Below, in pieces: positions 1-15,530 of a stretch of 43,025 bases of DNA. Under the pieces are notes generated by a model. That model was not told the origin of the DNA. It did not search any database and saw only the letters and a program-made list of their open reading frames with translations. The DNA is from a virus. The first letter of the stretch is position 1, and every line of letters starts with the position of its first letter. The DNA is taken from the IMG/VR virus record IMGVR_UViG_3300002138_000051, positions 1 through 43,025 of that record. The stretch is one strand, 5' to 3'. A program made the position numbers and the translations under genes.

Positions 1-186
1 CCTAAAGCTGTTGTATGTGAGATAAATACTGCCCCTACTTTAAACAGTAGTCCGCATGTTCTTGAAAGATACTCTAAGTTATTTAACAAAATAGCTAGAA
101 GCGAAACAAGAATTGAGCCTTGGGATTTTGAAAGTTTTGAATCAGCCAATAGTTTAGCATGGAAAGAGATACAACTAGCCGAATAA
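1..186 (+). CDS. C-terminal end of an ATP-grasp-like ligase (5' partial)
   Basis: An open frame runs in from the left edge and ends at TAA 184-186, giving 61 residues. Near its start is C-E-I-N-T-A-P-T (residues 6-13). The E-x-N-T-x-P pattern is typical of the metal-binding end of ATP-grasp enzymes such as D-Ala-D-Ala ligase and RimK-like ligases, which join a carboxylate to an amine using ATP. The genes that follow are an amidotransferase and an amidoligase, and ATP-grasp enzymes are known companions of both, which supports the call. The N-terminus lies outside the window, so substrate and full length are unknown. The frame overlaps the next gene by 28 bases. Confidence 0.55.
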   Translation, partial: PKAVVCEINTAPTLNSSPHVLERYSKLFNKIARSETRIEPWDFESFESANSLAWKEIQLAE

Positions 187-1226
187 AGATTTGGAGCAAT
201 ATTGAATTAGATGTAGATTTTGTATATCCTTATGATATTGTACCATTAGAAGAGTGTGATGTGATAATGTTATGTGACATAGTGTCAGAACGGGTATATC
301 TACCTAGACGCATTTACACATCTGAATTTGAAGATGTAACAAGTCCTGACGAGCCTAATAATATGGAAAGAGCTCTTTCTGAAATATTAGAAGTTACAGA
401 ATATTTAAAACTTCATAAGCCCATAGTAGCTTTTGGAAGGTATGGTTTCATTTTAGCGCTTCTTATGGGAGGCGCTATAATTGATTCAAGTGCTGCTGCT
501 AATTCTTTAAGATATGTATTACATCCTTCGGGAGCCTCTACCAGAGTTGAATCAGGCAGATTAAATTTAATAATGCCTAGTTCTTTATTTATATCATTAG
601 CTATAACTTCTAGTAGAGATATTGCTCATAATTATAGTTCTAATGGAACTAGTGTTACATTGCCGGGAATCGATCCCGTTGAGATTGGTTACATTCCGAG
701 ATGTAATAGTATATTTTTTGAAGCTCCTTATAGCGCATGGCAATATAACGTACTTCATAATTATATTACTACTCTTACAAGTAAAGATTTTAATGGATTT
801 GCAGATGTTCAAAGATTTTCAAATGTTTCAGTATGCCCAGAAGTTCTTAGAAAAAAGAAAACTATAGCACCTCCCATTAGTACAGAGCGTCATTATAACC
901 CATATGGTATAATTAAACCTTCTAAAAGAAAGGAAGTGCCGACTGGCAGTATTGTTACATCGCTGGGTGCGACTAAGTCTACGTCAGTGAACATAAGTGA
1001 AGCACTAAAAGATGTATTTAATAAACCACAGGCGGAAAAAAAACCAGAAGTAAAATTTGATCCTTCTCAATACTTTGTCCATAAAGTATCTGTCGATGAT
1101 TTTAATGTTCATGTAGCTAAAACACCTGACATCGATAATGCTGAGTCGCATGAAGAACAGATTGCAAATTCTGAAGCCGCAATTGCGCATGAACAACAAC
1201 GGCAACAACAACCACCACCATTTTAA
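159..1226 (+). CDS. Hypothetical protein in the amidoligase module, possibly a degenerate class I amidotransferase fold
   Basis: This is a 355-residue protein of unknown function. Its start overlaps the preceding gene, as is usual in this phage. Residues about 88-150 contain I-V-A-F-G-R-Y-G-F followed by L-M-G-G, then a His-Pro and a Met-Pro-Ser-Ser-Leu segment. The order loosely recalls the nucleophile-elbow region of class I glutamine amidotransferases (G-x-C-x-G, then G-G, then His). There is no cysteine at the expected place, so it would be inactive as a glutaminase. The C-terminal third is low complexity and ends in Gln-rich and Pro-rich sequence. Its position between an ATP-grasp-like gene and a class II amidotransferase suggests a role in the same pathway. 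The fold suggestion is weak and rests on motif spacing only. Confidence 0.6.
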   Translation: MERDTTSRIKIWSNIELDVDFVYPYDIVPLEECDVIMLCDIVSERVYLPRRIYTSEFEDVTSPDEPNNMERALSEILEVTEYLKLHKPIVAFGRYGFILALLMGGAIIDSSAAANSLRYVLHPSGASTRVESGRLNLIMPSSLFISLAITSSRDIAHNYSSNGTSVTLPGIDPVEIGYIPRCNSIFFEAPYSAWQYNVLHNYITTLTSKDFNGFADVQRFSNVSVCPEVLRKKKTIAPPISTERHYNPYGIIKPSKRKEVPTGSIVTSLGATKSTSVNISEALKDVFNKPQAEKKPEVKFDPSQYFVHKVSVDDFNVHVAKTPDIDNAESHEEQIANSEAAIAHEQQRQQQPPPF

Positions 1227-1233
1227 ACAACAA

Positions 1234-3345
1234 ATGTTAACAATTATAATAGTATTATTAATTTTAATACTCACACCACAACGATCGGGTATCCTTGGCT
1301 GCGGCCTTATAGGATTTGCCCCAAATAAAAAAAGAGAGGCAAATCTCACATGGATTAAACTCATCATGGTTTATAATACTTCAAGAGGAACTGATGCTTG
1401 CGGTATATATATTAATGAAGAGTCAATAAAAGGAGTTAAGACAGAGTCTGACGCTAGAACATTTTTAGCAATGCATCCGATTGAATATGTTCCCGGATGC
1501 AAAAATAAATTAGTTATTGCTCATACTAGAAAGTCCTTATTAGGTGCAGCTTTTGAAGAAAATGCACATCCTTACACTTTTACAAACGACGAAGGTCGTT
1601 CTATTACATTAGCTCATAATGGAACTATAAACAACATTTATGATTTAGCTAGAGAATCTGGCGTAGATTGTACTGGATTATTAGTAGACTCTCAAAAATT
1701 AGCTAAAATAATTCTTGAAAAAGGTTATTCCGTTTTAAATGATTATAAAGGAACAGCTGCATTATTATTTAGCTTTTCAGATGATCCTAATGCATTATAT
1801 GTATTTAAAGGAGCATCACTAGATAAAGTTACTGATAAAGAGGTAAGTACTGAAAGACCTTTATTTTATATAGAGACTATGGAAGGATGTTATTTTTCTT
1901 CTATGTGGGAACCCTTAGATACTTTAACAGATCAGGTTACTGATACGTTCAGCGTACCTAATAACAAAGTATTTAGAGTTATTAATAATGAGTTTACAGA
2001 ATTATTTACTGCTGAAAGAGATTCTAATAATATATATGTACCAGCTGTTAGAACTGGACCTACGTACCACGGGAGTGCTAGCCACTATCCTAATACTAGT
2101 AATAGTTCTGAATATGTTGGTGAACCTAGAACCGAACCTGCTACTAATCTAAAATCTTTTACAGAAGTCTCAACCACTATGGGGCACAATTTTGGAAAAG
2201 ACATGTTTAGAGCCGGCGCTGTTCATTATTTAGGTGGTAGATATTATGCTAGAATAATGGGCTTAGTTGGACAATCAGCAAAAGATGTAATGTATCCAGC
2301 GTGTCCTGACTCAGCTGCGTATTTAATGAGAGGTTATCACTCTATCATGTATTGTAAGAAAGAGCCTAAAGTGTTCATTCCGCAAATAACAAATGCTGCA
2401 AATGCTAATATAAATAGCGAAACTGCAGGATACAGTAAGCTTTATTTTTATGAAGGTGTTTTAATTTCTCCTAAGAAAGTAGAACATTTTATTAGAAAAG
2501 TAGAAAAAAGATTAGATGATATGAATAATCCTTTTGAGAAGTTAAGACAACTGTCTTCCTTTTCAGAAACTCCTATCACATATCTACATTCTGAAACTTC
2601 TAAAATAAAAAATAATGAAATTAAGTTTTTCATAGCTGGTAAACCTCTTAAATCTAGATGCGAATATCGCCCAATACTTTCTCACAGAAAATATTCATTT
2701 GATGATAAAGGTAACTTGATAGCAATTTCTACCTCTATCAAAACTGATACTATTTTTAAAGATTTAGCATTAAATACTTCTTCTGCAGAAGCATCTGTTC
2801 CAGCGCTAATTAATCCAGCAACTGTTATTAAAAATGCAGCACAAACTCAAGCTACTGCGCAGTTAGCAAAGTTAAGAGCTAATAGTGCATTAACTGTTAA
2901 AAGATTTGAGATGCTGTTAGATGTTGCTTATTACAGACTTAAAGGTTATTCACAAGCTGAAGAATCAACAAGAATACTTGCTGAGGAAATAGATGGAGCT
3001 GCTGATACTACTTATTACAATTCTGAAAATAATGCTATAAGTTTTACAGGTAAAGATATACTGATAAGAGCTATAATGCTATCATTATTAGAAATATTAG
3101 GAACAGATAATCAGATTTCTATTGACCATTGCGAAGCAAGAGCTGCCGCTTTATTTAATACTAGCAACTCTTCAAGTCAGGGATTAATTCATGTAATGAA
3201 GCATTCAGGATATGGTGATTTTGCAAGTTTCGTAGATGAAGCTATTTTAGAACTACATCATGAAGCCGTTTCTAAATTCAAAAAAACTCCTATAACTTTA
3301 GAACAAGATGACTACTCAGAATTCGCCGAAGTCGGCAGTTACTAA
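1234..3345 (+). CDS. Class II glutamine amidotransferase (Ntn-hydrolase) fused to a large unknown C-terminal region
   Basis: The N-terminal domain carries the GATase II signatures. These are C-G-L-I-G-F with the candidate nucleophile Cys23, R-G-T-D-A-C-G (about 51-57), I-A-H-T-R then N-A-H-P, and A-H-N-G-T-I-N-N. Such domains release ammonia from glutamine for a partner synthetase or ligase; here the obvious partner is the amidoligase that follows. About 450 residues after the domain match nothing I recognise. Start: ATG 1234 lies just after the upstream stop at 1226. It places a 22-residue, very hydrophobic leader before the cysteine, and no start codon sits directly before Cys. The family needs a free N-terminal Cys, so the leader must be removed or the true start is non-standard. 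The 3' end overlaps the amidoligase start by 38 bases. Confidence 0.85.
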   Translation: MLTIIIVLLILILTPQRSGILGCGLIGFAPNKKREANLTWIKLIMVYNTSRGTDACGIYINEESIKGVKTESDARTFLAMHPIEYVPGCKNKLVIAHTRKSLLGAAFEENAHPYTFTNDEGRSITLAHNGTINNIYDLARESGVDCTGLLVDSQKLAKIILEKGYSVLNDYKGTAALLFSFSDDPNALYVFKGASLDKVTDKEVSTERPLFYIETMEGCYFSSMWEPLDTLTDQVTDTFSVPNNKVFRVINNEFTELFTAERDSNNIYVPAVRTGPTYHGSASHYPNTSNSSEYVGEPRTEPATNLKSFTEVSTTMGHNFGKDMFRAGAVHYLGGRYYARIMGLVGQSAKDVMYPACPDSAAYLMRGYHSIMYCKKEPKVFIPQITNAANANINSETAGYSKLYFYEGVLISPKKVEHFIRKVEKRLDDMNNPFEKLRQLSSFSETPITYLHSETSKIKNNEIKFFIAGKPLKSRCEYRPILSHRKYSFDDKGNLIAISTSIKTDTIFKDLALNTSSAEASVPALINPATVIKNAAQTQATAQLAKLRANSALTVKRFEMLLDVAYYRLKGYSQAEESTRILAEEIDGAADTTYYNSENNAISFTGKDILIRAIMLSLLEILGTDNQISIDHCEARAAALFNTSNSSSQGLIHVMKHSGYGDFASFVDEAILELHHEAVSKFKKTPITLEQDDYSEFAEVGSY

Positions 3346-4636
3346 ACAGGTAACATACGCAGAAAATCCTAATCTTGGATATAAGAAGGTGTCTCTTGCT
3401 GACGGAAGTACTGAATATAAAAAAAACTGTAAGCTTATAAAAGATAATTATTACAGAATTTCAGATCAGTGTATTCTAGTAGACAAGAGATGGTACATGG
3501 CTAATGACCATCGCATATTTTATGATTGCGAAATTAAAGAATATGCTTTGATATCTTTTAAAGGTGTTAATGAAGGTGTTGTTGGCACATCTGAATCTGG
3601 AGAGTTAATCATTGGAAAGTTTTCATCAAACCCATTATATAACTGCAAGTTAGTAACCAGCAAATACGTTAATGGAATAGCTTGTATATCATATGAAATT
3701 CCTAAAGCTTTAGGGTTTGTTGAACATATTAATAAAGGGCTATGGTCCGATATGAAAAATGTTGAACAACTTGATATACGAAAATTAGCTAATGCAAATA
3801 TACCACTTAGCGTTCAGGGTAGACTGTCTGCAGCTTATAATGTAAAATTAGATATGACAACTAAAAAAGCATTTGATTTCTCTAATAATGCTTATAATGC
3901 TGAAGAATCTAAAGAGTTTGATAAAAAGATTTCTGAATATAACAAATTTAAAACTCCTTTAACTAAAGATGTTAAAAGAGCTGCTAGATTGTTAGGAGAT
4001 CTTACTTTCGGATGTGAAATAGAAACAAAGTTAGGTAACATTCCCGGATATCTTCAGTCGCAAATGGGGATTATCATCTGTAAAGATGGTTCTATTGGGT
4101 ATTCTCCGGAGTTTGTTACTGTTCCGTATAAAGGAGCTAAAGGGCTACAATCCCTTAAGAATCTATTTACAGAGCTTAACAGACGTTGTACAACCGATGT
4201 AACATGCAGCTTACATTATCACGTAGGATCTATTAGAAAAGATAGAGAATTTCTGATAGCTATCTATAAGTTATATTGTAATATTCAAGCTGAATTACAT
4301 GCTATGTTGCCGATGTATAAAACTAATCCTGAAGGAATTAAGAAAAAGAATTACTGCAACTTTCTTCCATCTAGCTTAATCGGAAGTATGCTTACCCAAC
4401 CTTGCAATAAGGAATTATATAAATCTAACATTAACCAAACATTTGCTAAAATCCATAACTGGGTACTAGGCGGCGTTTCTAGTGATAAATTATATAATAG
4501 AAAAACTAAAACTCATCCTAGAGGTAGACAAAAATGGTATTTTGAAAGTAGATATTTCAGTATGAACATTATAAATATGTTCGTATCTGATCGTCAAACT
4601 GTAGAGTTTAGGGCTGAATGTAACCCCCTTGCATAG
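3308..4636 (+). CDS. Type 2 amidoligase, exon 1 (gene split by a group I intron)
   Basis: The protein shows the hallmarks of amidoligase 2 (glutamine-synthetase-like COOH-NH2 ligase): F-G-C-E-I-E (about 235-240), P-E-F-V-T-V-P-Y, C-S-L-H-Y-H-V-G, R-Y-F-S-M-N, and T-V-E-F-R ending at Arg435. The family makes amide bonds from a carboxylate and an amine with ATP. The frame hits TAG 4634-4636, followed at once by TAA. Only about seven residues after Arg435 are encoded before this stop, and they do not fit the family. The missing C-terminal part (H-H-A-V-L-N-P-T-K onward) resumes at about 5525. Coding sequence of exon 1 therefore probably ends near 4614, and 4615-4636 is intron read as protein. 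A spliced product would be about 537 residues. Confidence 0.85.
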   Translation: MTTQNSPKSAVTKQVTYAENPNLGYKKVSLADGSTEYKKNCKLIKDNYYRISDQCILVDKRWYMANDHRIFYDCEIKEYALISFKGVNEGVVGTSESGELIIGKFSSNPLYNCKLVTSKYVNGIACISYEIPKALGFVEHINKGLWSDMKNVEQLDIRKLANANIPLSVQGRLSAAYNVKLDMTTKKAFDFSNNAYNAEESKEFDKKISEYNKFKTPLTKDVKRAARLLGDLTFGCEIETKLGNIPGYLQSQMGIIICKDGSIGYSPEFVTVPYKGAKGLQSLKNLFTELNRRCTTDVTCSLHYHVGSIRKDREFLIAIYKLYCNIQAELHAMLPMYKTNPEGIKKKNYCNFLPSSLIGSMLTQPCNKELYKSNINQTFAKIHNWVLGGVSSDKLYNRKTKTHPRGRQKWYFESRYFSMNIINMFVSDRQTVEFRAECNPLA

Positions 4637-4692
4637 TAATATGCATTGAATAATTGGAAGAATTCAAAGGAACTCTTTGGAAAAAATAACTA

Positions 4693-4722
4693 TTGACAAA
4701 ACTTTTGATTATAGTATCTTTG
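4693..4722 (+). promoter_or_regulatory. Bacteroidetes-type promoter for the intron HNH gene
   Basis: TTG at 4693-4695, 19 bases, then TATCTTTG at 4715-4722. This matches the -33/-7 (TTG...TAnnTTTG) promoter of Bacteroidetes. The ATG of the HNH gene follows 7 bases after the -7 box. The promoter lies inside the intron, so the endonuclease can be expressed independently of the host gene. Confidence 0.85.
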
Positions 4723-4729
4723 TACTATA

Positions 4730-5470
4730 ATGAAAAGTAATATAGAAGTAAAAAATAATGAAAAATACGGAGAATGGACAGTAATTGACCAAACTCCTAT
4801 GAAAAGTAATTTTGGAAATGTTTACGTTTTATGTAAATGTACTTGTGGAACTATATCTAAAATAATGAGATGTAGATTAAAAGACGGTAAAACAAAAGGT
4901 TGTAAGAAATGCAGCTCGTCTAGAAACAAACAAGCATTAGGTAAAGGTAAACATAAAGGATGTGGAGAAGTGTCTAAAGAAATTTTTAAAAGAATAAAAA
5001 GACATTCTCAAGACAGACGTAGAAAAGATATTTCAAAAATGCCTTTTACAATAACTATAGAATACATATGGGAATTGTATGTAAAACAAAAAGGCATTTG
5101 TGCAATAAGCGGACTACCTTTAATATTACATCTAAAAGGTAAAAAAGTTACTTCTCATGATTATTTTTCTTATGTTACAGCTTCATTAGACAGAATTGAT
5201 TCAAATATGGGATATGTACCAGGAAATGTGCAATGGGTACATAAATGGGTTAATATTATGAAAAATTCAATGTCGGATGAACAACTTAAATATATATGTC
5301 AAACAATTTATTTTTATAACAAAGACAACTTTGAGCCGAGCCTTGTAAACGTAGACTTCTTACAGAAGGTTTCAAGGAAGGTGCAACGACTAACGGATGA
5401 TAGCTCTACGCTAAATAATTCTGACACGAGAATCCGACACCCTCAGTCCGAGGGTGATGACATAGTCTGA
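4730..5470 (+). CDS. Intron-encoded HNH homing endonuclease
   Basis: This 246-residue protein has an N-terminal zinc-ribbon-like segment with C-K-C-T-C-G (about 36-41) and C-K-K-C-S (about 62-66). A central HNH nuclease region follows: G-I-C-A-I-S-G-L-P, then A-S-L-D-R-I-D-S with G-Y-V-P-G-N-V-Q-W-V-H, typical of phage HNH endonucleases. Such enzymes cut an intronless allele and drive copying of the intron. The last 40 or so residues are odd: they are encoded by the ribozyme core itself (R to S elements), and the stop TGA 5468-5470 is part of the S region. The protein therefore ends in sequence dictated by RNA folding. Its own promoter abuts the start codon. Confidence 0.92.
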   Translation: MKSNIEVKNNEKYGEWTVIDQTPMKSNFGNVYVLCKCTCGTISKIMRCRLKDGKTKGCKKCSSSRNKQALGKGKHKGCGEVSKEIFKRIKRHSQDRRRKDISKMPFTITIEYIWELYVKQKGICAISGLPLILHLKGKKVTSHDYFSYVTASLDRIDSNMGYVPGNVQWVHKWVNIMKNSMSDEQLKYICQTIYFYNKDNFEPSLVNVDFLQKVSRKVQRLTDDSSTLNNSDTRIRHPQSEGDDIV

Positions 5471-5489
5471 ACTATACGGTGACGTATAG
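5380..5489 (+). ncRNA. Group I intron catalytic core (R/S elements, P7-P9)
   Basis: GTGCAACGACTA (5381-5392) is an R-like element. Its GACTA (5388-5392) pairs with TAGTC (5463-5467) in the S-like element ACATAGTCTGAAC to form P7. Between them lies a strong hairpin, CACCCTC/GAGGGTG, closing AGTCC (P8-like). After S, CTATACG-GTGA-CGTATAG (5472-5489) is a seven-pair hairpin with a GNRA tetraloop (P9-like). The order and spacing are those of group IA phage introns such as the T4 td intron. Confidence 0.85.
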
Positions 5490-5524
5490 AAGTAGTAATT
5501 AAAAAAGCTACGATAACAAAATTG

Positions 5525-5831
5525 ACACCACGCTGTTTTAAACCCTACTAAAGCTATTAATTGGTTATTCATATGTGTAGCTATCGTAAGATTTGCTGAA
5601 CAGCACAGTAGCCGAATAATAACTGGCAAAAACAAAATATCATTAGAAGAAGTATTAATGTATTACAAGAATACATTCGGTACTTCGTATTCTAGTTCAG
5701 TTTCAAATTATCTCATAGAATATTACAAAAGTCGTAAAGCTTTTTTTAGCAAGGCTGATGTAGTAGGAAGTGGCGATGAAGCCGAAACCGATTACACTTT
5801 TCTATACGAAGGGATGTCAGATATATTTTAA
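5525..5831 (+). CDS. Type 2 amidoligase, exon 2 (C-terminal part)
   Basis: An open frame from 5526 to TAA 5829-5831 encodes 101 residues starting H-H-A-V-L-N-P-T-K-A-I-N-W-L. This fits the stretch that follows T-V-E-F-R in amidoligases (E-F-R-x-H, then L-x-P and a helix). TGA at 5523-5525 blocks the frame just upstream, and there is no start codon near the beginning, so it cannot be an independent full gene. The rest is a mostly helical tail ending S-D-I-F. Joined to exon 1 at Arg435-Ala436 it completes the enzyme. Confidence 0.8.
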
Positions 5832-6917: not shown

Positions 6918-7577
6918 ATGACATGTATATACAGTATAATAAACAAATTAAACGGCAATCAATACGTAGGATCTGCTGTAAATTTTTACAAAAGAAAACA
7001 AATCCACTTAAAACAACTGCGCTTAAACATCCATCACTCTAGATATTTGCAAAGAGCTTGGAATAAACACAAAGAAGACATGTTTGATTTTATAGTGTTG
7101 GAAAAAGTAAAAAGTAAAGACTTTTTAATTCAACGTGAACAATGGTGGATTGATAATTCAAATTCTCAATACAATGTTTGTAAAATAGCAGGAAGTAGTT
7201 TGGGTGTAAAAAGAACAGCTGAAACAATAGAAAAGATAAGGCAAGCTAACTTAGGATTAAAACATCCGGAATGGAGAAATGAAATAAAAAGTAAAGCTCA
7301 GGGCGGTGTTAATCACCATGGGTATGGTAAAAAACTATCAGAAGAAACTCTTAAGAAAAAATCTGAATCTATGAAGCAATATTATAAGACTCATCCTCAT
7401 ATGCGTGCTAAAACAGTGTGTAAATATGATTTAGAAGGCACTCTTCTTCAATGCTTTGATTCAGTAAAGTTAGCAGCATATGATGCAGAAATACACTACC
7501 TTACTCTAATAAGATTAATTAATGGTAAAACTAAAGTGAGAAAATTAAAACAATTTCAATACAAATATGAAAAATAA
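6918..7577 (+). CDS. GIY-YIG homing endonuclease with NUMOD domains
   Basis: This 219-residue protein starts with C-I-Y-S-I-I-N (3-9) and Q-Y-V-G-S-A (15-20), the GIY-YIG core; a Glu follows in Q-R-E-Q-W-W. Two NUMOD3-like DNA-binding repeats follow (A-E-T-I-E-K-I-R-Q-A-N-L-G and S-E-E-T-L-K-K-K-S-E-S-M). A NUMOD1-like helix-turn-helix ends the protein (V-C-K-Y-D-L-E-G-T-L). This is the usual build of mobile GIY-YIG endonucleases. The gene has its own promoter. Its stop overlaps the start of the HAD gene by 11 bases, and a HAD 5' relic lies upstream, so it seems to have inserted at the HAD D-F-D-G codons. Confidence 0.9.
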   Translation: MTCIYSIINKLNGNQYVGSAVNFYKRKQIHLKQLRLNIHHSRYLQRAWNKHKEDMFDFIVLEKVKSKDFLIQREQWWIDNSNSQYNVCKIAGSSLGVKRTAETIEKIRQANLGLKHPEWRNEIKSKAQGGVNHHGYGKKLSEETLKKKSESMKQYYKTHPHMRAKTVCKYDLEGTLLQCFDSVKLAAYDAEIHYLTLIRLINGKTKVRKLKQFQYKYEK

Positions 7578-7980
7578 AATAATTGTGAGCCTAGATTTTG
7601 ACGGCACACTCGCTACATCAATTGAATTACAAGATTTTGCAAAACTACTTGCAGAAAAAGGAGTAAATGTATGTATTACAACTAGGCGAAGTAACGACCC
7701 TGTAAATAATGCAGAATTCCACGAACAGTTTCCGCATCAGGAAGTAGAAAGACTAGCATCCGCACTAAAAATAAACACTATTAACTATACTAATGGTCAC
7801 TATAAGAATATATTCTTTGAAGGCAAGTTTGGATATATTCACATTGATGATGATGATACAGAGATTAGATATATAGTATATGATAAGCTGAATGCTAAAA
7901 ACGACGTTATGTGTTTTAACGTTATGGAAATTAAAAAATTTAAAGAATATATAATTAATGAATTTGGAATCAATATCTAA
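7567..7980 (+). CDS. HAD-family hydrolase (putative phosphatase)
   Basis: This 137-residue protein has HAD motif I, S-L-D-F-D-G-T-L-A (residues 8-16), with the nucleophile Asp10 and acid Asp12. Motif II may be C-I-T-T-R-R. A D-D-D-D run follows I-H-I, as in motif IV. It lacks a large cap domain, so it is a compact phage phosphatase of the 5'-nucleotidase or polynucleotide phosphatase kind; the substrate is unknown. The start ATG overlaps the end of the GIY-YIG gene. The first 12 codons appear to be a replacement for a 5' end left at 6821-6859. Confidence 0.82.
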   Translation: MKNKIIVSLDFDGTLATSIELQDFAKLLAEKGVNVCITTRRSNDPVNNAEFHEQFPHQEVERLASALKINTINYTNGHYKNIFFEGKFGYIHIDDDDTEIRYIVYDKLNAKNDVMCFNVMEIKKFKEYIINEFGINI

Positions 7981-12016: not shown

Positions 12017-12254
12017 CATTATAAAAGAATTTGGAAGCTATGCCGCTTCTAAACCTTACAAACCTGTACCAATATCACATATGGTAAATGATAGATTTAG
12101 AGTATTAGCTTTACCTAAACATAAGGGAGTGATTACATTTAAGCCTTCATGTAAGTATATAGCTGTACTTGACGGCTCTCCTGAGAGTTATATTATTATG
12201 AAGATATCGCTAAAGACTCTTCGTACAATTTACAATAAAGGAAGTAATGGATAA
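11991..12254 (+). CDS. Hypothetical protein, 87 residues
   Basis: A small basic protein, probably mixed alpha/beta; I do not recognise the family. It overlaps the gene before by 26 bases and the patatin-like gene after by 8, so it is part of the same transcript. Confidence 0.65.
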   Translation: MKQIINANNIIKEFGSYAASKPYKPVPISHMVNDRFRVLALPKHKGVITFKPSCKYIAVLDGSPESYIIMKISLKTLRTIYNKGSNG

Positions 12255-13161
12255 TAAAAACATAAGCGCGTTGAGTATATCCGGCGGTGCAATGGGCATC
12301 GTCGGACAATTCGGCGTAACTGAACAAATCTTTAACCGAATTAAACCAGAATATTTTGCTGGTATTAGTGCGGGAAGTATCTTAGCATTAGCTATGCCTA
12401 CAGTTGATTGGAATTCTACATGTGAGTGTAGAACTTTTAATCTAAAAAGGGCTTTGCTAGGAATTAGATCTTGTGATATTTGGAGTGCGAATCCTCTAAA
12501 TAAAAAAGGAGGATTCTCAATAATAGCTGTAGCAAGTATTTTATCAGGTAAACCCGGCTTAGGAGATATGAGTAATTTAGGTGAGTATCTATCTAAACAT
12601 GTTCCTAAGAATAAATTTATTATGAGGCTGAAAGATAACCCAAGATATAAAGGTATATTTGCAGGTTCTGTTGATTTTAATACTGGTAGTAGACAATATG
12701 TCAATCTTAAAGATTGTTCATATAATGATGCTCTTGATTGGGTTATTGCATCATCTTCTATTCCAGTATTTGCAGAACCGGTTGAAAAGGATTCAAGCTT
12801 CTATTTTGATGGAGGTGTTAGAAATCATAATCCCGGACATTGGTTAACAGAAAACTATGGTAAAGATTTTAATAGATTAACTAGTATATATTCCAGACCT
12901 GAAAATTATGATATATCTAATAAGGATTGGAAGCCTGATAATGTATTAAAAGTACTTGAAAGAAGTATTGAAATCATGCAAATGGAGATTTCAAAACGGG
13001 ATCAAAAAGAAGAGATTCGATTATGCTCAGATCTAGGTATCGATTTAAGTCAGATATTCTTACCTAAGATGCTACAAGGATATTATGATACTGACACTAC
13101 TAGATTAAGAGCATTATACGAAGCTGGTAAAAAAATAGGAAAGGAGTTTAATGAAAGATAA
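12247..13161 (+). CDS. Patatin-like phospholipase
   Basis: This 304-residue protein has the three patatin landmarks. These are a Gly-rich oxyanion segment S-I-S-G-G-A-M-G (10-17), the nucleophile elbow G-I-S-A-G (Ser41), and D-G-G (188-190) giving the catalytic Asp. The usual G-G-G-x-R/K-G lacks its basic residue here. Patatin-like enzymes hydrolyse acyl esters of lipids. No signal peptide is present, so it acts in the cytoplasm or at the inner face of the membrane. In a phage it could alter host membranes, interfere with defence or assist lysis; nothing in the sequence decides this. It overlaps the genes on both sides. Confidence 0.9.
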   Translation: MDNKNISALSISGGAMGIVGQFGVTEQIFNRIKPEYFAGISAGSILALAMPTVDWNSTCECRTFNLKRALLGIRSCDIWSANPLNKKGGFSIIAVASILSGKPGLGDMSNLGEYLSKHVPKNKFIMRLKDNPRYKGIFAGSVDFNTGSRQYVNLKDCSYNDALDWVIASSSIPVFAEPVEKDSSFYFDGGVRNHNPGHWLTENYGKDFNRLTSIYSRPENYDISNKDWKPDNVLKVLERSIEIMQMEISKRDQKEEIRLCSDLGIDLSQIFLPKMLQGYYDTDTTRLRALYEAGKKIGKEFNER

Positions 13162-15458: not shown

Positions 15459-15460
15459 TG

Positions 15461-15530
15461 AGGACTGTGAGGGAGTCGAACCCTATCAACTTGGTTTAGA
15501 ATCAAGTGCTTACCCTGTAAGTCACGGTCC
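15461..15530 (-). tRNA. tRNA with probable anticodon CUA (amber suppressor), degenerate stems
   Basis: On the minus strand a cloverleaf can be drawn. The acceptor is GGACCGT with ACAGTCC, with one C-A mismatch. The D arm is CTTA/TAAG with a short five-base loop. The anticodon arm is CTTGA-TTCTAAA-CCAAG, four pairs plus an A-C mismatch. The T arm is AGGG-TTCGACT-CCCT. In the 7-base loop TTCTAAA, T33 is followed by CTA (plus-strand 15499-15497), which reads UAG. An arginine TCT reading would need a 9-base loop or would break the stem. CCA is not encoded. The mismatches and short D loop mean it could be a decaying gene. Confidence 0.72.

Follow-up and report, generated by a model that had tools for sequence, protein, structure and literature searches.

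The left end of the complete linear IMG/VR record IMGVR_UViG_3300002138_000051 (43,025 bases, all of which is called the window below) carries at positions 1–5831 a plus-strand gene module built around a class-II glutamine amidotransferase (GATase II), and it raises the question of what such a module joins together and where in the infected cell it acts. The phage is crAss-like and Steigviridae-related, its relatives being Cellulophaga phage phi14:2 and cr108_1 (both Crassvirales, Steigviridae) and also Leptolyngbya phage Lbo-JY46. The answer that we favor, at somewhat better than even confidence, is that the window starts with the right-hand half of a crAss-like phage amide-ligation operon whose predicted acceptor lies in the host envelope or in a host protein at the membrane. 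Two features are new here: its working amidotransferase is made with a membrane-anchor-like leader before its catalytic Cys, as in many relatives, and the seemingly unknown member of the module is a burnt-out class-I glutamine amidotransferase.

Organization and recurrence of the operon

Four plus-strand genes packed in a row, some from families that make or feed amide or peptide bonds, had been described at positions 1–5831 in a sequence-only reading of this DNA. The open reading frames (ORFs) do overlap or nearly touch, and profile matches bear out the families; the amidoligase, however, is not one continuous gene, since a group I intron bearing an HNH ORF lies within it. The first unit (1–186, plus strand) encodes only the last 61 aa of a RimK-like ATP-grasp ligase, the rest lying beyond the contig end; these residues match PHROG 2599 (annotated 'ribosomal protein S6 glutaminyl transferase'; E = 2.8e-4), and the motif EINTAPTLN can be read in them directly. 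Next come a 355-aa protein (159–1226, plus strand), the 703-aa GATase II (1234–3345, plus strand), which starts at an ATG 8 nt past the previous stop and matches GATase_6 with 33.9 bits (cut-off 27), and an Amidoligase_2 protein scoring 28.3 bits when spliced.

Leftward extension had been set beforehand as a test that could refute an amide-bond module. Contig L002 (28.5 kb), 99% identical to the window, supplies the missing left part of the operon, and the whole order across L002 and the window is uracil-DNA glycosylase (UDG), GGCT (gamma-glutamyl cyclotransferase), a 377-aa protein, COOH-NH2 ligase (PF14395), ATP-grasp, the 355-aa protein, GATase II and Amidoligase_2; the operon genes of L002 overlap one another. 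GGCT (L002:3579–4046) matches Pfam GGACT with 41.3 bits, above the cut-off; the COOH-NH2 ligase type 2 (L002:5129–5947, outside the window) matches PF14395 with 37.4 bits against a gathering cut-off of 25; and the full RimK-like ATP-grasp of 311 aa (L002:5944–6879) matches RimK PF08443 with 30.8 bits (cut-off 21). These left neighbors therefore mark the locus as an amide or gamma-glutamyl module, and its ATP-grasp, COOH-NH2 ligase, Amidoligase_2, GATase II and GGCT genes are all co-directional.

Eighty viral loci were fetched with an alignment of four GATases and their ORFs searched by iterated profiles, leaving 71 non-duplicate loci. The amidoligase follows GATase II in 67 of these, mostly overlapping it or at most ~30 bases away, and all five enzymes are present in 39, in agreement with the earlier statement that ATP-grasp, amidoligase 2 and GATase II genes travel together in some phages. 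Besides phi14:2, cr108_1 and Lbo-JY46, dozens of metagenomic viral contigs have this set, a recurrence that excludes a chance grouping. In phi14:2 (NC_021806), g037–g041 encode GGCT, ATP-grasp, COOH-NH2 ligase, GATase and amidoligase, the five enzymes of the window, co-directionally and next to a UDG, although ATP-grasp and COOH-NH2 ligase are swapped, the UDG lies at the opposite end and the 355-aa protein is missing; its amidoligase is unsplit and ~33% identical to that of the window. Both cr108_1 (NC_055878) and Lbo-JY46 (PP438436) have ATP-grasp, COOH-NH2 ligase, GATase II and amidoligase, as in the window, but their GATase II starts MCG without a leader, and no GGCT is recognized in cr108_1. 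The LUZ24-like phages carry the same gene set (PMC3890496), with PF14395 ligase, Amidoligase_2, GATase_6, ATP-grasp and GGCT together in ORF21–ORF29 of UFV-P2, but in another gene order and in an unrelated phage lineage with Pseudomonas hosts. A passage of PMC10580990 that quotes Iyer et al. 2009 reports the proposal that phiEco32 uses its amidoligase and GATase to alter the cell wall and prevent superinfection, and the suggestion in the sequence-only reading of surface-polymer or protein modification comes close to that published idea. Given this carriage and this prediction, the module is of a known kind. Our literature searches found no paper combining 'crAss-like' and 'amidoligase' and no demonstrated substrate for the module class. 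In one phage sub-group (L057, L058, L063, L064, L073 and L077) a second class-II GATase-like ORF directly follows the amidoligase, starting MCL or MCI in those read.

A hydrophobic leader before the catalytic cysteine of GATase II

Catalysis by class-II GATases depends on a Cys at the N terminus. In the window, a 22-aa hydrophobic leader, MLTIIIVLLILILTPQRSGILG (1234–1299, plus strand), stands directly before the catalytic Cys codon (1300–1302). Residues 23–260 form the N-terminal nucleophile (Ntn) domain, with AlphaFold2 (AF2) confidence (pLDDT) mostly at least 90; VIA aligns the model with E. coli PurF at Z 23.8, C23 falling on Cys1, and C23 superposes on Cys1 of PurF and GlmS at Z 23–24 with a root mean square deviation (rmsd) of 2.6. 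C23-G24 is invariant in 41 sequences, and the protein thus combines an Ntn fold with a Cys-Gly pair that would start the mature chain. A leader of 22–33 residues from an ATG to the Cys takes the place of a Met-Cys start in 27 of 74 relatives; in nearly all 27, one or more basic residues follow the hydrophobic stretch, and the GATase II of phi14:2 likewise has a hydrophobic leader, MTIIEIILVALFIHTVGFFLTKKRRINNVIS, followed directly by CG. These sequence features predict that the leader-bearing GATase II is a membrane-tethered precursor requiring cleavage. The leader may be a single-pass anchor, N-out/C-in, and the precursor, by analogy with propeptide-bearing PurF, would be cut between the preceding residue and the Cys. 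B. subtilis PurF, which has the same Ntn fold (VIA Z 21.4 to 1ao0), is a class-II GATase with a propeptide, in which the residues before the catalytic Cys must be removed; unlike the leader of the window, however, that propeptide is short and not hydrophobic, and B. subtilis PurF has a phosphoribosyl pyrophosphate domain, none of which is recognized in the window GATase II.

Two other accounts of the residues before the Cys were considered. The in-frame residues might simply be untranslated, GATase II starting just before the Cys as in other phages; a Met-Cys start is indeed found in nearly two thirds of the relatives, and AT-rich DNA favors hydrophobic in-frame stretches. However, in none of the 27 leader cases does a start codon directly precede the Cys (AAT, TCT, TAT and other non-start codons are found there), and the best 15-residue Kyte-Doolittle mean is 2.2–3.4 in every one of them, whereas control upstream ORF extensions ending in Met-Cys score −1.9 to 0.41; since these spurious extensions are not hydrophobic, AT-richness does not explain the leader hydropathy. 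Close pairs indicate purifying selection on the leader (nonsynonymous differences, pN, 0.05; synonymous differences, pS, 0.29–0.34), with eight of nine leader changes in one pair falling in third codon positions, and the distance of the leader ATG from the upstream stop resembles that of Met-Cys starts, the spacing being normal for an operon. An untranslated leader is extremely improbable on this evidence. The leader might instead be a lipoprotein signal peptide, with signal peptidase II cutting before the Cys and a lipidated GATase being exported, an idea that gains from the position of the hydrophobic stretch upstream of an invariant Cys, where the cleavage point would coincide. Yet the strict lipobox [LVI][ASTVI][GAS]C fits 1 of the 27 leaders and is failed by ILGC of the window, the residue before the Cys is often Asn or Tyr, and the basic residues are usually placed after the hydrophobic stretch and before the Cys rather than ahead of the stretch. 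Moreover, the Cys corresponds to Cys1 of PurF and GlmS, and by established Ntn chemistry lipidation would block the catalytic amine, all of which makes a lipoprotein very improbable.

Beyond the Ntn domain, a second folded region (residues ~328–505; 2215–2748, plus strand; pLDDT ~83–94 over residues 401–500) recurs in phi14:2 and cr108_1 and is covered by the BFVD matches S0A016 and A0A7M1RX44. Whole-GATase fold searches, whose solved-structure matches covered the Ntn domain, returned no solved-structure counterpart for this region, which was not folded or searched alone, and the missing counterpart is no proof of a new fold. The earlier argument that unrecognized parts of the module may mean a new substrate does not hold, as failure to recognize a protein is no evidence about its substrate.

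The 355-aa protein as a degenerate class-I GATase

The 355-aa protein had been called unrecognizable, and indeed it has no Pfam match, and a close-relative scan with it matched only the contig of L002. Its identity is nevertheless recovered through L023, the closest syntenic relative (GATase II 58% identical over the part compared), where the same position holds a 262-aa protein matched by the class-I GATase profile, with GxCxG already changed to GFNRG. In hhalign comparisons with syntenic class-I GATases, the 355-aa protein scores 46.6% alone (E = 2e-4) and 95.2% together with its L023 orthologue (E = 2.6e-8); against six other module families it scores <1%. Its AF2 model (mean pLDDT 62; residues 1–215 mixed, mostly >70; tail low) matches solved class-I GATases with VIA Z up to 14.8 and rmsd 2.7 over 163 residues, although the model is partly guided by class-I GATases because the input alignment contains them. 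The protein accordingly divides into a Peptidase_C26-like domain at residues ~5–215 and a low-confidence Q-rich tail.

The class-I GATase fold is thus recovered while the catalytic Cys-His-Glu triad is not: AFGRY replaces the nucleophile motif GICRG and the alignment shows no HPE motif, so that sequence and model together mark the protein as a fold relative and not an active member, with the nucleophile Cys and triad His lost. It probably serves as a binding, structural or scaffold subunit. Most loci keep the Cys, as do the class-I GATase genes of cr108_1 and Lbo-JY46, unlike the 355-aa protein; further Cys-less copies occur in L041/L042 (GFGNG) and in Lbo-JY46 (GIGRG), where the additional copy lies after the amidoligase.

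A group I intron in the amidoligase gene

Exon 1 of the Amidoligase_2 gene (3308–4614, plus strand, within a first ORF of 3308–4636) matches PHROG 2443 (E = 6e-20), and exon 2 lies at approximately 5525–5831 (plus strand), with the splice position placed to ±1 nt. Joining 3308–4614 to 5525–5831 gives EFRA followed by HHAVLNPTKAINWL, which matches EFRLHHGTFNAYKIVNWL of Lbo-JY46 and unsplit relatives. Exon 1 alone reaches 17.1 bits against PF12224 (cut-off 22); the spliced form exceeds the cut-off and reaches the profile end (245/245), and its invariant residues are E237, E239, D260-G261-S262, H303, H305 and R435. A group I intron (4615–5524, plus strand) separates the two exons, and predicted splicing restores a 537-aa enzyme. 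RF00028 matches at 5229–5489 with 52.6 bits against a gathering score of 50 in a short-stretch run, overlapping the end of an HNH homing endonuclease ORF (4730–5470, plus strand; PHROG 3322, E = 1.2e-20; PHROG 374 HNH). A whole-window Rfam run at the gathering threshold with fast filters reported no intron, and an Rfam scan of eight related loci gave nothing at the gathering score, although coding gaps there show introns.

A homologous intron lies at the same codon in L013, and L021 has one at another site in its amidoligase gene; some crAss-like phages are known to be dense in introns (PMC7886860). Gaps also split the class-I GATase of L012/L013 and of L055, the COOH-NH2 ligase and amidoligase of L021 and the amidoligase of L051, and some of these hold homing-endonuclease-like ORFs. 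Mobile introns, this suggests, target the module repeatedly.

Proposed mechanism and alternatives

In the mechanism that we propose, GATase II would hydrolyze glutamine and deliver ammonia or pass on a gamma-glutamyl-derived unit; PF14395 and PF12224, predicted glutamine-synthetase-type ligases, and the RimK-like ATP-grasp would use ATP to activate a carboxylate and couple it to an amine, yielding an amide or a gamma-glutamyl or peptide adduct on an acceptor. Trimming or editing of gamma-glutamyl units would fall to GGCT, joined in relatives by a class-I GATase/C26 hydrolase that is still active, and the C26-type protein of this lineage, its catalysis lost, would act as a binding or scaffold subunit. 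The leader would sit in the inner membrane and leave GATase II facing the cytoplasm, the enzyme would become active once cut before Cys23, and the likeliest target of the module would be the envelope of the host cell or a host protein located at the membrane. The signature catalytic residues of GATase II and amidoligase are intact, in support of this scheme. Several points weigh against it. Sequence searches of solved structures returned nothing for the amidoligase, COOH-NH2 ligase or ATP-grasp, we found no assay of the module's ligases or ATP-grasp, and a genome-contig scan with the amidoligase gave no relative and no cellular operon naming a substrate. The leader itself is patchy, with 12–13 gains or losses needed on the tree, and has therefore often been lost or regained; membrane tethering is thus not essential to every version of the module, and cleavage at Cys23, if it occurs, would leave the mature GATase II no longer covalently tethered.

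Small gamma-glutamyl compounds are the substrates of GGCT and C26 hydrolases, and the module might correspondingly yield a small soluble compound (a gamma-glutamyl amide, polyamine or cofactor derivative) in place of modifying envelope or protein; the class-I GATases that the 355-aa model resembles also include gamma-glutamyl hydrolases of the PuuD and SpuA types. The GATase II leader in over a third of the relatives points instead to the membrane, and the recognized conserved set has no amine-producing or transport gene, which leaves a soluble product rather unlikely. Hypermodification of phage DNA bases, with the adjacent UDG taking part, would fit the position of the module among replication genes and the UDG found near the module, on either side, in 25 of the 71 loci; however, most loci have no UDG nearby, and no base-activating enzyme (hydroxymethylase, DNA kinase or glycosyltransferase) is recognized in the conserved set, making this quite improbable. 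The leader evidence thus leads us to favor, with moderate confidence, membrane, envelope or protein modification over both a soluble metabolite and DNA modification. More tentatively, and at rather less than even confidence, in many crAss-like phages GATase II may be a membrane-anchored, self-cleaving precursor, with ammonia released and amide bonds formed at the inner face of the membrane and a dead class-I GATase as scaffold.

Genome setting and neighboring genes

The module is co-oriented with UvsX-like recombinase, exonuclease and NTP-pyrophosphatase genes and opposite to the lysis and presumed late genes; its place among replication genes indicates that it is probably expressed early. A patatin-like phospholipase (PF01734, 63.2 bits) is encoded at 12247–13161, also among plus-strand, presumably early genes. 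Within the left part of the operon, the UDG occupies L002:2848–3585 and the fast-evolving 377-aa protein L002:4027–5160. The latter has no Pfam match above cut-off and has related proteins only at the same module position in L023 (4330–5442) and L012 (3114–4046), this fixed place holding a fast-evolving protein of 310–380 aa; at other loci the place is taken by similarly sized proteins that look unrelated and often have an N-terminal stretch containing Cys.

A tRNA with anticodon CTA, labeled tRNA-Pyl by ARAGORN, lies at 15460–15530 (minus strand), and suppressor tRNAs are known in crAss-like phages (PMC7886860). There is little sign of TAG readthrough in the window genes, and reading TAG as Gln (table 15) did not meaningfully extend the module genes. 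To the right of the module, comparison of 6918–7577 and 7567–7980 with L002:13293–13924 shows a GIY-YIG endonuclease gene that the window has and L002 lacks; it interrupts a HAD-like gene just past GATTTTGAYGG. The window retains the old HAD-like 5' fragment (LDKSVISFDFDG, then a stop) and the insert brings a new start (MKNKIIVSLDFDG), by which the interrupted gene is rebuilt.

Implications

If the proposal is correct, these phages would assemble a membrane-localized amide-ligation complex, of which we found no description for phages. Many Bacteroidota phages have the module, as do unrelated lytic phages, and the conserved leader offers a positional clue, the membrane, to its function; the cultured phage phi14:2 has both module and leader.

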